Part shown: positions 43,694 through 48,933 of the stretch, one piece after another
Layout: each line of letters opens with the position of its first letter
Position numbering within the stretch: the stretch's first letter is position 1
Source of the DNA: Natronorubrum daqingense
GTDB lineage: Archaea; Halobacteriota; Halobacteria; Halobacteriales; Natrialbaceae
Assembly: GCF_001971705.1 (NCBI RefSeq)
Contig: NZ_CP019327.1
Coordinates: forward strand, 2,914,001 to 2,978,000
Length of the DNA stretch: 64,000 nt
Reading direction: 5' to 3'
The notes under the pieces: model-generated
Databases searched by the model: none
The model's input: the letters and a program-made list of their open reading frames with translations, nothing else
Told to the model about the DNA's origin: nothing
Translations under genes and position numbers: made by a program

Positions 43694-44215
43694 ATGGATC
43701 ACCTCGAGGACCTCTCCGTCGACGAACTGCACGCCGCACTCGAGAACGTCGAGGGGAAAAAGCCGACACAGCGGTTACTCGCAGCGATTGCCTACAAAAA
43801 TGGCGTGACGCAGACGGAACTCGCAGACTGGCACAACGTCGAGCGAAAGACGATCTACAGTTGGCTCAACAGACTCGACGCGGAGTCACTCGAGGCGGCC
43901 GTCGAAGACGAACACCGGCCCGGCCGACCGCGAAAACTCTCCGAAGACGAGCGACTCGAGTTCGAACGAACGGTACAGGAGTCCCCACCCGACGCGTACG
44001 ATGTCGGTTCGGGTTGGAGTCCGTCGATCGTCCAGCAGTATTTGGTGGACACCTACGACGTCCACTATTCGCTGCCGAGTTGCCGCCGAATACTGAAAGA
44101 AATCGGATTCGAGTACCGAGGACAGACTCGGACAAGTGGTGTGAAAACACGGGACAAAACCAATGACTGGGCTACTAACGAACGAAAATCTTCTGGAAGA
44201 TGGTTTTTAGAGTAA
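43694..44215 (+). CDS. Orphan IS630-type helix-turn-helix protein
   Basis: A 173-residue protein, MDHLEDLSVDELHAALENVE. An HTH region (TQTELADWHNVERKTIYSWL) is followed by PGRPRKLSEDERLEFE and a second HTH (WSPSIVQQYLVDTYDVHYSL then SCRRILKEIGFEY). These match the DNA-binding part of IS630-family transposases; the DDE domain is absent and nothing resembling it follows in any frame. A TATA element (AACTTTTTAC) is placed 27 bp before the ATG, suggesting real expression. It could be a decayed transposon half or a recruited DNA-binding protein. rdfA starts 233 bp downstream on the same strand. Confidence 0.75.
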   Translation: MDHLEDLSVDELHAALENVEGKKPTQRLLAAIAYKNGVTQTELADWHNVERKTIYSWLNRLDAESLEAAVEDEHRPGRPRKLSEDERLEFERTVQESPPDAYDVGSGWSPSIVQQYLVDTYDVHYSLPSCRRILKEIGFEYRGQTRTSGVKTRDKTNDWATNERKSSGRWFLE

Positions 44216-44448: not shown

Positions 44449-45072
44449 ATGGTTCCAGCGGAATCAGACGACGAGCAACGTCGGACTCGAGGCGGGAAAG
44501 TCGCACGCGTGATTCACCAGTACGACCTCGAGGGATTCGGCGTCGAGTTAGAACGCGCCTGGACTGCCGAAGGCGAGGACCGACGCAGTCTCAGAGCGCT
44601 CGCCGACGATCTCAATCGCGAACTCCTGCGCGCGTCGATCCGTCGGGCTGACGGCGATTCCCTCGAGACCGAACTCGACGCCCTCTATCAGGGACTCGCC
44701 GACGAGGGGGTCAGTTCGGCGGATCGGACGCGTATCCGCCGCCGTCTCGAGCGTCGCGGCGTCGACGTCGACCAGCTCGAGTCCGACTTCGTCTCGTACC
44801 AGGCGGTTCGGACCTACCTCACGAAACACCGCGACGCAACCTACGAGAAGCCCGAGACGGACCGCCTTGGCGAGACGAAAACCACGATCGAACGCTTGCG
44901 GAGCAAGACCGAGACCGTCTCGGCCAACCGCCTCGAGCGCCTCGAGCGCGCCGACGAGTTGGCCGTCGGCGACCTCACCGTTACCGTCGACGTGCGGGCG
45001 ACCTGTCGCGAGTGTGGAGCACAGTACACCGTCACCGAACTCCTCGAGGAGCGAGGGTGTGAGTGTTCGTGA
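44449..45072 (+). CDS. rdfA: RdfA-like protein (rod-determining factor family)
   Basis: A 207-residue protein. KVARVIHQYDLEGFGVELERAW opens the family block, with FVSYQAVRTYLTKH in the middle and a C-terminal knuckle CRECGAQYTVTELLEERGC ending in CS. It resembles the haloarchaeal RdfA family, named for a rod-shape role in Haloferax volcanii. I recall it being encoded beside an archaea-specific SMC-related protein, as here. The C-terminal Cys set (CxxC plus CxC) suggests zinc binding. The partner gene begins 123 bp downstream but has its own promoter region with a palindrome. Confidence 0.72.
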   Translation: MVPAESDDEQRRTRGGKVARVIHQYDLEGFGVELERAWTAEGEDRRSLRALADDLNRELLRASIRRADGDSLETELDALYQGLADEGVSSADRTRIRRRLERRGVDVDQLESDFVSYQAVRTYLTKHRDATYEKPETDRLGETKTTIERLRSKTETVSANRLERLERADELAVGDLTVTVDVRATCRECGAQYTVTELLEERGCECS

Positions 45073-45122
45073 TCGGTCATCGGCTCGAATCGGTGCGCTG
45101 GTCGTCCGATCTCTTCGACCAT

Positions 45123-45140
45123 AACACGGGTACCAGTGTT
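45123..45140. promoter_or_regulatory. 18-bp near-palindrome upstream of the SMC-like gene
   Basis: AACACGGGTACCAGTGTT is a near-perfect palindrome (one mismatched pair) centred on GGTACC. It lies 56 bp before ATG 45196. A near-identical copy sits after the gene at 47255-47272. Confidence 0.5.
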
Positions 45141-45195
45141 ATTTCTGGGAATCGCAGTGCTATCTTTTTTGTACTCGGCCGTCGGTCATTCGTGT

Positions 45196-47139
45196 ATGGT
45201 AACTAATTCCCTCGAGACCCAATCGCTCTCCCTCGAGGCGTCGAACGTCGGGGGTATCGACGAAACGTCGGTGCGACTCTCGCCGGACGTCACGGTGCTC
45301 TCGGGCCGTAACGCGACGAATCGAACCTCGCTTTTACAGGCAATCATGGCCGTCCTCGGTAGCGACAACGTGTCCGTCAAAGCCGACAGTTCGACGGCAC
45401 ACGTTTCGCTCTCGATCGACGAAGAAACGTACACGCGAACGATCACGACCGAAAACGGGACACGACAGACGGGGGGCGATCCGTACCTGGAGGATTCGAC
45501 ACTGGCAGATCTCTTCGCGTTTTTGCTCGAGTCGAACGACATTCGTCGGGCGGTCACGACCGAGCAAGACCTCCGCGAACTCATCATGGAGCCCGTCGAT
45601 ACGGACGAAATCGAGGCCGAAACCGAACGCCTCGTCCAGAACCGAGCGGAGATTGCCGACGAGCTCGAGGAACTCACATCGTTGAAACAGCGACTCCCGT
45701 CTCTCGAGGAGCAGCGGACGGAGCTTCGAGACGAGATCGACTCGACGGAAGCAGAACTCGCGGATCTCGAAGCACAACTCGACGACCACGACGCTGATGT
45801 CACGGAAACGCGAGCGGAGAAAAACGAAGTCGAACAACTCCTCGCCGACCTCCGAGAGAAACGAAGCTCGCTCGAAGACGTTCGATACACCCTCGAGACC
45901 GAAAAACGGAGTCTCACCTCGCTTCGATCCGAACGCTCGGAACTCGAGGCGGAACTCGAGGATCTGCCAGCACCCACCACGAGTACGCGTTCCGAACTCG
46001 AATCGGAAATCTCGTCCCTCCGAGAGCGAAAGCAGCGCCTTGAGTCGGAAATTAGCGACGTCCAGAGCGTCGTCCGCTTCAACGAGGATATGTTAGATGG
46101 AAATACACCGTCGCTTCTCACCGATACTCGATCCGGAGACGACGACCCAGTGACGGACGCGCTCGTCTCCGAGGAGACGGTTACCTGCTGGACCTGCCAC
46201 AGCGAGGTCGAAGTCGACCAGATCGAAACGACCGCGGAGATCCTTCGAGACCGGTGTCAGGAGAATCTCGACGTCGTCGGCGATCTCAAATCCGAGATCG
46301 CGAAACTTCGCGACGAGAAAGCCGATCTCGAGGAAACGGCACAACGACGTACCCAACTCGAACGTCGTATCGACGAACTCGAAGACGAAATCGAAGAAAC
46401 TGACGAGCAAACCGACGACCTCGCCACGGAGCGTGACGACCTGCGCGAAGAAATCGCCTCGCTCGAGGACGAAATCGAGTCGAAAGAAGACGAATCCTAC
46501 GACGCGATTCTCGAGATCCACCGCGAGGCGAATCAACTCGAGTACGACCTCGGTTCCCTGGAGAGCGACCTCGAGCGCGTCGAGGACGAAATCGAGTCGA
46601 TCGAATCGAAACTCCGGCGTGAGGACGACCTCGAGGCGGAGCACGCACGGCTCAAAGACGAAATCGAAGAGCTGCGGATGACGGTCGAGCGGATCGAACA
46701 GCAGGTGATCGACGAGTTTAACGAGCACATGGACACCGTCCTCGAGTTGCTCGATTACCGGAACCTGGAACGGATATGGTTAGAACGGGCGGAGACGGAC
46801 GTTCGCGACGGTCGCCAGATCGTGACGAAGAGCACCTTCACCCTCCACGTGATCCGCCAGACCGAAAGTGGCACGGCGTACGAGGACACCGTCGAACACC
46901 TCAGCGAGAGCGAACGCGAAATCACGGGATTGATCCTCGGATTGGCTGGCTACTTGGCACACGACGTCTACGAGACCGTTCCGTTCGTGCTTTTGGACTC
47001 GCTCGAGGCGATCGACGCCGAACGGATCGCGACGCTCATCGATTATCTCACCGAGTACAGTCCGTCGCTGGTCGTCGCGTTGCTCGAGGAGGACGCTGCA
47101 GCACTGGACGACGAGTACCGATACGTTTCGGAAATATAA
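45196..47139 (+). CDS. Archaea-specific SMC/Rad50-like protein (Sph-type)
   Basis: A 647-residue ABC-type ATPase with long coiled coils. The Walker A-like loop is SGRNATNRTS (residues 36-45): the lysine of GKS/T is replaced by Arg43. Two coiled-coil arms (about 125-310 and 345-530) flank a central hook TCWTCH with Cys331 and Cys334, as in Rad50. The signature region is HLSESEREITGLILGL and Walker B is PFVLLDSLEAID (Asp601). ATG 45196 is chosen: a TATA-like CTTTTTTGTAC lies about 27 bp upstream. It fits the haloarchaeal SMC-related group (Sph1-like). Role in cell shape or chromosome structure is inferred from its rdfA neighbour. Confidence 0.85.
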   Translation: MVTNSLETQSLSLEASNVGGIDETSVRLSPDVTVLSGRNATNRTSLLQAIMAVLGSDNVSVKADSSTAHVSLSIDEETYTRTITTENGTRQTGGDPYLEDSTLADLFAFLLESNDIRRAVTTEQDLRELIMEPVDTDEIEAETERLVQNRAEIADELEELTSLKQRLPSLEEQRTELRDEIDSTEAELADLEAQLDDHDADVTETRAEKNEVEQLLADLREKRSSLEDVRYTLETEKRSLTSLRSERSELEAELEDLPAPTTSTRSELESEISSLRERKQRLESEISDVQSVVRFNEDMLDGNTPSLLTDTRSGDDDPVTDALVSEETVTCWTCHSEVEVDQIETTAEILRDRCQENLDVVGDLKSEIAKLRDEKADLEETAQRRTQLERRIDELEDEIEETDEQTDDLATERDDLREEIASLEDEIESKEDESYDAILEIHREANQLEYDLGSLESDLERVEDEIESIESKLRREDDLEAEHARLKDEIEELRMTVERIEQQVIDEFNEHMDTVLELLDYRNLERIWLERAETDVRDGRQIVTKSTFTLHVIRQTESGTAYEDTVEHLSESEREITGLILGLAGYLAHDVYETVPFVLLDSLEAIDAERIATLIDYLTEYSPSLVVALLEEDAAALDDEYRYVSEI

Positions 47140-48162
47140 TTCGGAGGAGCTTCGTTTCTGGAATCTATGTTCGTCGCTCGTTTTGCATTCGTTCGATCGA
47201 CCGAGAGCGTCGTTCGGCTCGTCCGTTGTCGTCTCCGGTCGGTCGCTGTGGCCGAACAGTGGTACCAGTGTTAGCAATTGGTTGCAGGGCTGTCTCGTTA
47301 CTCGCCCCACTCTCGCTCGAAGATTCGATACTGTTCGCACCACTGTCCGACACGATCTTAGAATGTGGGCGATTGTGCTGATAACTGCTGACTATCTTGG
47401 ACCCTGTCTAGCAATCTACCGGACTTATTGAACCCGATTTTGGCTATTCCGAAAGCACGGTTACGCGTTTCACGGGGAATACCAGCTGTGGGAACCTGCC
47501 GGTAGCGGATCGAACGTTCTCTACTGTGACTCAGCCGGTCGAAAACTGTCGTCGTCGTCGCGAGCGTACACGGTATGTGTCAGTATCTGCCCGATCAAGT
47601 GAACTCGACGTGTCTCTAGTCAGTGTCTAGCCATCTGTCTTGTATCGAAACGTCTTCCTGAAGTCGGTCGCTCCATCGAATTGGGTTCGACGATTCCGAA
47701 ACGGCTGTCGAATCTCGTCTGTTGCTACGACGTGTGCATTCGACTCGACATCACTTCGACGCTGTCTCGGCGATAATCGGCTCTCCACCGCGTGGTTTGC
47801 CGGTATACGACGGCTGAGGAGGATTGGTCGGTCGTACTCTCAGTTCTTCGACGACTGCCTCGTCTATCGATATGTTCATCCCACTCACACTCTTCGCTAA
47901 ATTTCGATTTCCGTTTCTTTGCCCGAATTGCCGTTTCTCGCGCCACCACGAACCCGTTTCGTCGTTCTCGAGACGAGTCGTAACGCCAACTTGTTGGAGA
48001 ATATCGCCGCGAGTCGATTTCGGTGTGACCGAATAGTTGTGGCCGCGCCGAGAGTCGAATATCGAATTTCACGCTACAACACTCAGAACCCATATATTCG
48101 CCACTTCTCCAGGTCGGGATCATCAAAGAGTATATGTACATTCACCTACTGTAATATAGACA
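47140..48162. other. 1.0-kb region without a recognisable gene
   Basis: Open frames on both strands are short, Arg/Ser-rich and match nothing I know. It looks less GC-rich than its surroundings and contains many stop codons in all frames. It holds the second 18-bp near-palindrome (47255-47272) and the promoter of the IclR gene (AGTATATGTAC near 48131). It may be decayed DNA from a lost mobile element. Confidence 0.55.
47255..47272. repeat. Second copy of the 18-bp near-palindrome
   Basis: AACAGTGGTACCAGTGTT matches 45123-45140 at 16 of 18 positions, and the next base (A) is also shared. It is centred on TGGTACCA. The two copies bracket the SMC-like gene. Confidence 0.5.
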
Positions 48163-48933
48163 ATGACACGCAAAACCGATAACGGGCGTCGGATCAAGGC
48201 GACGGAGACGACCTTCGCTGTCGTCGAAACGCTGGCCGACCTCGAGTGTGCGCGGTTGTCGGAGATCGCCGCCGAGGTCGGAATTGCGAACAGTACCGCT
48301 TCGGAACACCTGTCGACGTTACAAGACCACGGTTACGTCGTCGAGGACGACGATGGGTACCGACTCGGCCTACGGTTTATGGATACGGGGACGCAGGCCA
48401 AACGCTACTACGATACCCTCCTCTCGGCGTCGAAACCAGTGTTAGAACAATTGGTCAACGACACCGGCGAGACGGTGAACCTGATCACGAACGAGAACAA
48501 CATGGCCGTCTACGTCGACCGCCTGTTCGGCACTCGAGGCGTCCCGACCGACTCCTGGGTCGGCAAACGACGACCGCTGCACATGCTCGCGGGCGGCAAA
48601 GCGATTCTCGCCGAGTTGCCCGAGGAGGAACTCGACGCGGTCGTCGAAGAACACGGCTTTCCCGCGGCCTCCGAGCACACGATCACCTCTCGAGACGAAC
48701 TCGAGGCGGAACTCGAGACGATACGCGAGGAGGGTATTTCGTTCAACGACCGCGAGTCTCACAAGCAGATTCGGGCCGTCGGGACGGCCATCGTCCTCGA
48801 CGACGGCGTCTACGGCTCCGTCTCGATCGCCGGCCCGGCACAGCGCTTTCGGGGGTCGTACTTCCGCGAGGAACTGCCGAACATGCTGTTGGGCGTCGTC
48901 AACGAAATCGAACTCAAACTCACGTACCGCTGA
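48163..48933 (+). CDS. IclR family transcriptional regulator
   Basis: A 256-residue regulator. The winged HTH is AEVGIANSTASEHLSTLQDHGYV; the effector domain contains YVDRLFGTRGVPTDSWVGKRRPLHMLAGGKAILAEL in pieces and ends GSVSIAGPAQRFRGSYF. IclR proteins usually sense small acids or aromatics and control nearby catabolic genes. Here the glutaryl-CoA dehydrogenase-like gene starts 96 bp downstream on the same strand. A TATA-like TATATG lies about 31 bp before the ATG. It is the best candidate regulator of the region to the right. Confidence 0.93.
   Translation: MTRKTDNGRRIKATETTFAVVETLADLECARLSEIAAEVGIANSTASEHLSTLQDHGYVVEDDDGYRLGLRFMDTGTQAKRYYDTLLSASKPVLEQLVNDTGETVNLITNENNMAVYVDRLFGTRGVPTDSWVGKRRPLHMLAGGKAILAELPEEELDAVVEEHGFPAASEHTITSRDELEAELETIREEGISFNDRESHKQIRAVGTAIVLDDGVYGSVSIAGPAQRFRGSYFREELPNMLLGVVNEIELKLTYR

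Follow-up and report, generated by a model that had tools for sequence, protein, structure and literature searches.

The gene pair at 44449-47139 of the window (the whole stretch of Natronorubrum daqingense DNA analysed, 64,000 nucleotides) is the standard haloarchaeal module of cell-shape genes, RdfA with an SMC-like Sph/ASRP protein, and the ATPase site of its ASRP bears changes that are fixed in all the closest relatives surveyed. As read from aligned sequences, the residues that contact Mg-ATP are retained (first P-loop Gly, Thr44, Asp601 for Mg and signature Ser570) and those for hydrolysis are substituted and then strictly conserved, with Arg43 for the Walker A Lys, Ser602 for the catalytic Glu and no H-loop His. 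Our proposal, which we rate a little short of evenly balanced, is that a dimer of Sph heads binds ATP, that its hydrolysis is lost or very slow, and that the protein serves with RdfA as a zinc-hooked structural scaffold.

Both genes lie where the first-pass annotation had placed them (Table 1), and its assignment of the smaller product to the RdfA family and of the larger to SMC/Rad50-like proteins with a zinc hook is borne out, each exceeding its family cut-off (a gathering score of 27 bits for PF21811 and a curated 300 bits for NF045487). The stop codon of rdfA and the ATG of asrp are 123 bp apart, the two families being adjacent as in the RdfA-Sph3 cell-shape system. The asrp open reading frame has two candidate starts, GTG at 45136 (667 aa) and ATG at 45196 (647 aa), and residues are numbered from the ATG because the family alignment begins near it; use of the upstream in-frame GTG would prepend a hydrophobic segment, MLFLGIAVLSFLYSAVG, from 45136-45195, a stretch that is probably not translated. 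Upstream of rdfA, at about 43700-44200, an open reading frame looks from its sequence like the beginning of an IS630-type transposase that is cut short. The genome encodes three ASRPs, namely that of the window, a paralogue of the same motif type (L002, 48% identical) and L003 (30% identical), whose loop, GPNAANKSS, keeps the Walker A lysine; three of its four RdfA genes are beside ASRPs and one, L240, is solitary. An ASRP above the family cut-off is present in 123 of 145 haloarchaeal genomes sampled, and a search for phage or virus copies found none.

Table 1. Features of the rdfA-asrp locus, in window coordinates
Feature	Position	Strand	Remarks
rdfA-family gene, 207 aa	44449..45072	+	Pfam PF21811, 236 bits, 3.4e-70
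RdfA Cys cluster C186-x2-C189 ... C204-x-C206	45004..45066	+	each Cys in 127-128/137 RdfA partners of NR-type ASRPs
18-bp palindrome AACACGGGTACCAGTGTT	45123..45140		between rdfA and asrp ATG
ASRP/Sph (SMC-related) gene, 647 aa from ATG 45196	45196..47139	+	NCBIfam NF045487, 646 bits, 7.7e-194
Walker A-like loop GRNATNRTS, residues 37-45 (G37, R43, T44, S45)	45304..45330	+	Gly-Lys replaced by Asn-Arg; GxNATNRTS invariant in 156/156 NR-type
Zinc hook CWTC, C331-C334	46186..46197	+	CxxC invariant in 149/149 NR-type
ABC signature LSESE, L569-E573	46900..46914	+	invariant in 149/149 NR-type
Walker B end D601-S602-L-E604 (FVLLDSLE)	46996..47007	+	D-S-x-E invariant in 156/156 NR-type
Second palindrome copy AACAGTGGTACCAGTGTT	47255..47272		116 bp past asrp

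In the AF2 model of the ASRP (mean pLDDT 84.7) the N and C termini together form a predicted ABC head of SMC/Rad50 type (Z 21.3 against an SMC head and 21.0 against Rad50 with ATP-gamma-S), so that Sph heads are predicted to keep that fold, and the hook lies between two coils, mid-coil as an ASRP requires. Sequence searches for solved relatives yielded none for the ASRP and only a chance match for RdfA. The Walker A and B positions are recognisable, with Gly-Lys and the catalytic Glu substituted here and likewise in all close relatives; where the SMC superfamily has its Walker A Lys and catalytic Walker B Glu, this protein has Arg43 and Ser602. The first-pass annotation had correctly seen the Arg and missed that the preceding Gly is Asn; it had also called the signature and Walker B present, but the signature is LSESE, not LSGGE/Q, and the second change, the missing catalytic Glu, was overlooked. 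A further acidic residue, Glu604, is three residues after Asp601. The H-loop His is lacking in nearly all ASRPs, those of methanogens included. A genome-wide P-loop peculiarity is ruled out, the SMC of the same genome reading GPNGSGKS.

How general is the altered site? An alignment of 197 distinct proteins from ASRP searches (a few, L044-L046, being Rad50-like) contains 156 of the window's own type, termed NR, all with both the altered loop and the altered Walker B end. Eight are of NK type, with an NKS/T loop and D-S or D-A at Walker B, and one is of GR type; of the 32 of GK type about 21 make up a haloarchaeal clade, mostly NWQGKSS, LSEGE and D-G/R/Q, and the remaining members are methanogen or other archaeal proteins with D-E in most. 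The loop that had been singled out as an oddity is, on this family-wide alignment, typical of its subfamily. Pairwise identity within the NR type ranges from 29% to 100%, with a median of 51% (149 sequences), and all six Arg codons are used at R43 across the 156 genes; recent copying thus does not explain the residue, which is held by selection, and such uniform motifs at that divergence point to selection on an altered site, not decay. The same conservation, with its synonymous variation, rules out chance and sequencing error. RdfA adjoins 137 of the 156 NR-type genes, and every haloarchaeal RdfA-linked ASRP examined, Lys-bearing ones included, is missing the catalytic Glu.

On a rival reading no nucleotide would be bound: Arg43 would form a salt bridge to Asp601 or Glu604, leaving a closed site of purely structural role. 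Such a pseudo-ATPase would account for the joint absence of Gly-Lys, catalytic Glu and H-loop His and for the co-occurrence of Arg43 with Glu604 in 156/156 NR-type sequences, but we think it unlikely, as invariance extends to the remaining P-loop residues and to Thr44, Asp601 and Ser570, which a dead pocket would not require, and Lys returns in one nested group (on a branch of weak support). Might the same Glu604 instead betray a working ATPase whose site is rearranged, with Arg43 serving for Lys and Glu604 for the catalytic Glu two residues later? Its invariance in the NR type and absence from the Lys-bearing haloarchaeal GK type speak for this; however, it would lie away from the usual position of the base on the Walker B loop, and the Lys-bearing L003-type group has neither Glu, so that this reading too seems to us improbable.

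A third rival reading has RdfA completing the site in trans with a lysine or arginine finger, and its K17 and R49 are indeed nearly invariant. They are about as conserved, though, in the RdfA partners of ASRPs that have their own Walker A Lys, and a lysine donated by RdfA finds no support in the K17 comparison; we give such a finger very little credence. The C-terminal Cys knuckle that the first-pass annotation saw in the small partner is real (Table 1). The AF2 model of RdfA (mean pLDDT 91.4) has an all-helical body and a small C-terminal 4-Cys module, and a fold search with it gave no significant structural relative (best Z 4.0). Distances among RdfA proteins track those among their ASRPs closely (Mantel r 0.91 for 168 pairs and 0.85 within the NR type, with a permutation maximum of about 0.2), which shows co-inheritance, not physical contact.

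The order of events was approached with a tree that omits the motif columns and excludes L044-L046, L054 and L055, which look like other SMC/Rad50-type proteins. It gives 98/96 support to the Sph clade, made up of the NR type, some of the NK type and one GR sequence. Both the GK clade and the group of L003 lie outside this clade, and the next to branch off are the methanogen ASRPs that have GKT and DE. Within the Sph clade Lys and Arg interchange on this motif-free tree, as they would with a side chain whose only task is to hold phosphate; the exact branching is weakly supported. On two methanogen plasmids, pMETEV01 of Methanohalobium evestigatum and pMETHO01 of Methanomethylovorans hollandica, a GKT/DE ASRP has an RdfA-like gene adjacent (that on pMETHO01 slightly below the Pfam cut-off), so that the pair is also found where the ATPase site is intact. 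On Methanosarcinaceae plasmids (L036 and L038, the same as L227 and L228) the ASRP-RdfA pair is followed by an extra small hypothetical gene. The aligned motifs thus have the catalytic Glu absent from all the RdfA-linked haloarchaeal forms examined, and the lysine from part of those only. Rooting suggests that the intact site is ancestral, an order that could be complicated if plasmids have passed between methanogens and haloarchaea.

Retention of the Mg-ATP residues together with substitution of the hydrolysis residues is what leads to the ATP-locked scaffold. Asn tolerates the same backbone shape as the Gly that precedes the Walker A Lys, and Lys-to-Arg exchange with loss of the catalytic Glu is a classic means of slowing hydrolysis in ABC and P-loop proteins with some binding left, the same two kinds of change being introduced by biochemists to trap ABC dimers. 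ATP binding would close two Sph heads into a dimer; with hydrolysis lost or very slow, closed heads and zinc hook together would give long-lived rings or chains, which RdfA, as a dedicated and co-inherited partner, may anchor or regulate, the outcome being not a cycling motor but a structural scaffold that supports cell shape or the organisation of the nucleoid. In favour are the match of the predicted head to ATP-bound Rad50 and SMC heads and, on the aligned motifs, the absence of the catalytic Glu from the haloarchaeal RdfA-linked ASRPs examined and its presence in methanogen ones beside RdfA. Against it, ATP may no longer bind once Gly-Lys is lost, the invariant Glu604 could serve as base, and the need of gene conversion for all four Haloferax Sphs, as described in passages of PMC11276520, fits a DNA-active protein equally well. 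Searches of an open-access library yielded no ATPase or nucleotide-binding data for any Sph/ASRP and no natural Walker A Arg. The main haloarchaeal Sph clade at large may be a branch of the SMC superfamily that is by nature unable to hydrolyse ATP and stays locked with it bound, its changes fixed by evolution to give a static zinc-hooked cell-shape scaffold, a possibility that we advance with some reserve.

The DNA around asrp has features of its own. The two near-identical palindromes (AACA..GGTACCAGTGTT) are the only sites within 2 mismatches of their consensus in the 3.8-Mb genome, with 0 expected in window shuffles; palindrome pairs are not conserved at relatives' loci, and other matches look like codon-driven TCGA repeats. 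They could be a putative operator, and may lie outside the RdfA-ASRP system. An IclR-family regulator is encoded in the window at 48163-48933, and in the same genome others are beside the L002 pair and the solitary RdfA. Such a regulator occurs at 66/156 NR-type loci vs 2/32 GK and 0/8 NK; with roughly 0 to 18 IclR-family genes per haloarchaeal genome, the flanks, about 1.2 Mb in all, should contain only a few, and since the loci are non-independent (several are from Haloferax) the excess is a lead and not a measured enrichment.

Rod shape and gene conversion both depend on Sph proteins, which are annotated as having an SMC-like P-loop. If their largest haloarchaeal clade is without ATP hydrolysis, it could not work by loop extrusion or a clamp cycle, as is assumed of SMC proteins, and Sph would be a rare SMC-family protein turned static scaffold. 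The natural motif series GK-DE, GK-DG, NK-DS and NR-DSxE provides ready-made test proteins.

The rdfA-sph3 pairing is already known, having been published for Haloferax. According to passages of PMC10869688, deletion of rdfA or sph3 leaves Haloferax volcanii with disk cells only, both being needed for rods, which upholds the tie of the RdfA family to rod shape made by the first-pass annotation, and an SMC-like gene adjoins 42 of 54 RdfA genes; a passage of PMC13286277 has Sph3 promoting plates, contrary to PMC10869688, in which the sph3 deletion cannot form rods. In PMC11276520, as excerpted, sph2 and sph4 are not deletable together. The passages found on Sph, ASRP or RdfA make no mention of a substituted lysine or glutamate, and those of PMC10869688 leave Walker A and B undiscussed.

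Compared at family level, the window pair is like RdfA-Sph3 of H. volcanii (HVO_2174-2175, in the passages of PMC10869688) in its families and gene adjacency. It also resembles the ASRP family NF045487 (Sph1, Sph2 and ClsN in the portion of PMC9389158 concerned) in size, zinc hook and head-coil layout, but that text gives Walker A and B as present, whereas here Gly-Lys and the catalytic Glu are substituted. Rad50 and SMC share the ABC head fold and antiparallel coil, Rad50 also the zinc hook, and differ in having GxNGSGKS, LSGGE/Q and DE motifs and no RdfA partner. Closer at hand, the historically studied Sph1 of Halobacterium salinarum (pNRC200) is likewise RdfA-paired and without the catalytic Glu (LLDGIGQLA, DGIG), but keeps the Walker A Lys (ASNFQGKSS), its type belonging to the separate GK clade; the second pNRC200 ASRP (L230), which is probably Sph2, shares with the window ASRP an Arg at the Walker A Lys position and a DSLEAID Walker B, and differs in keeping the Gly (GRNATGRTS).
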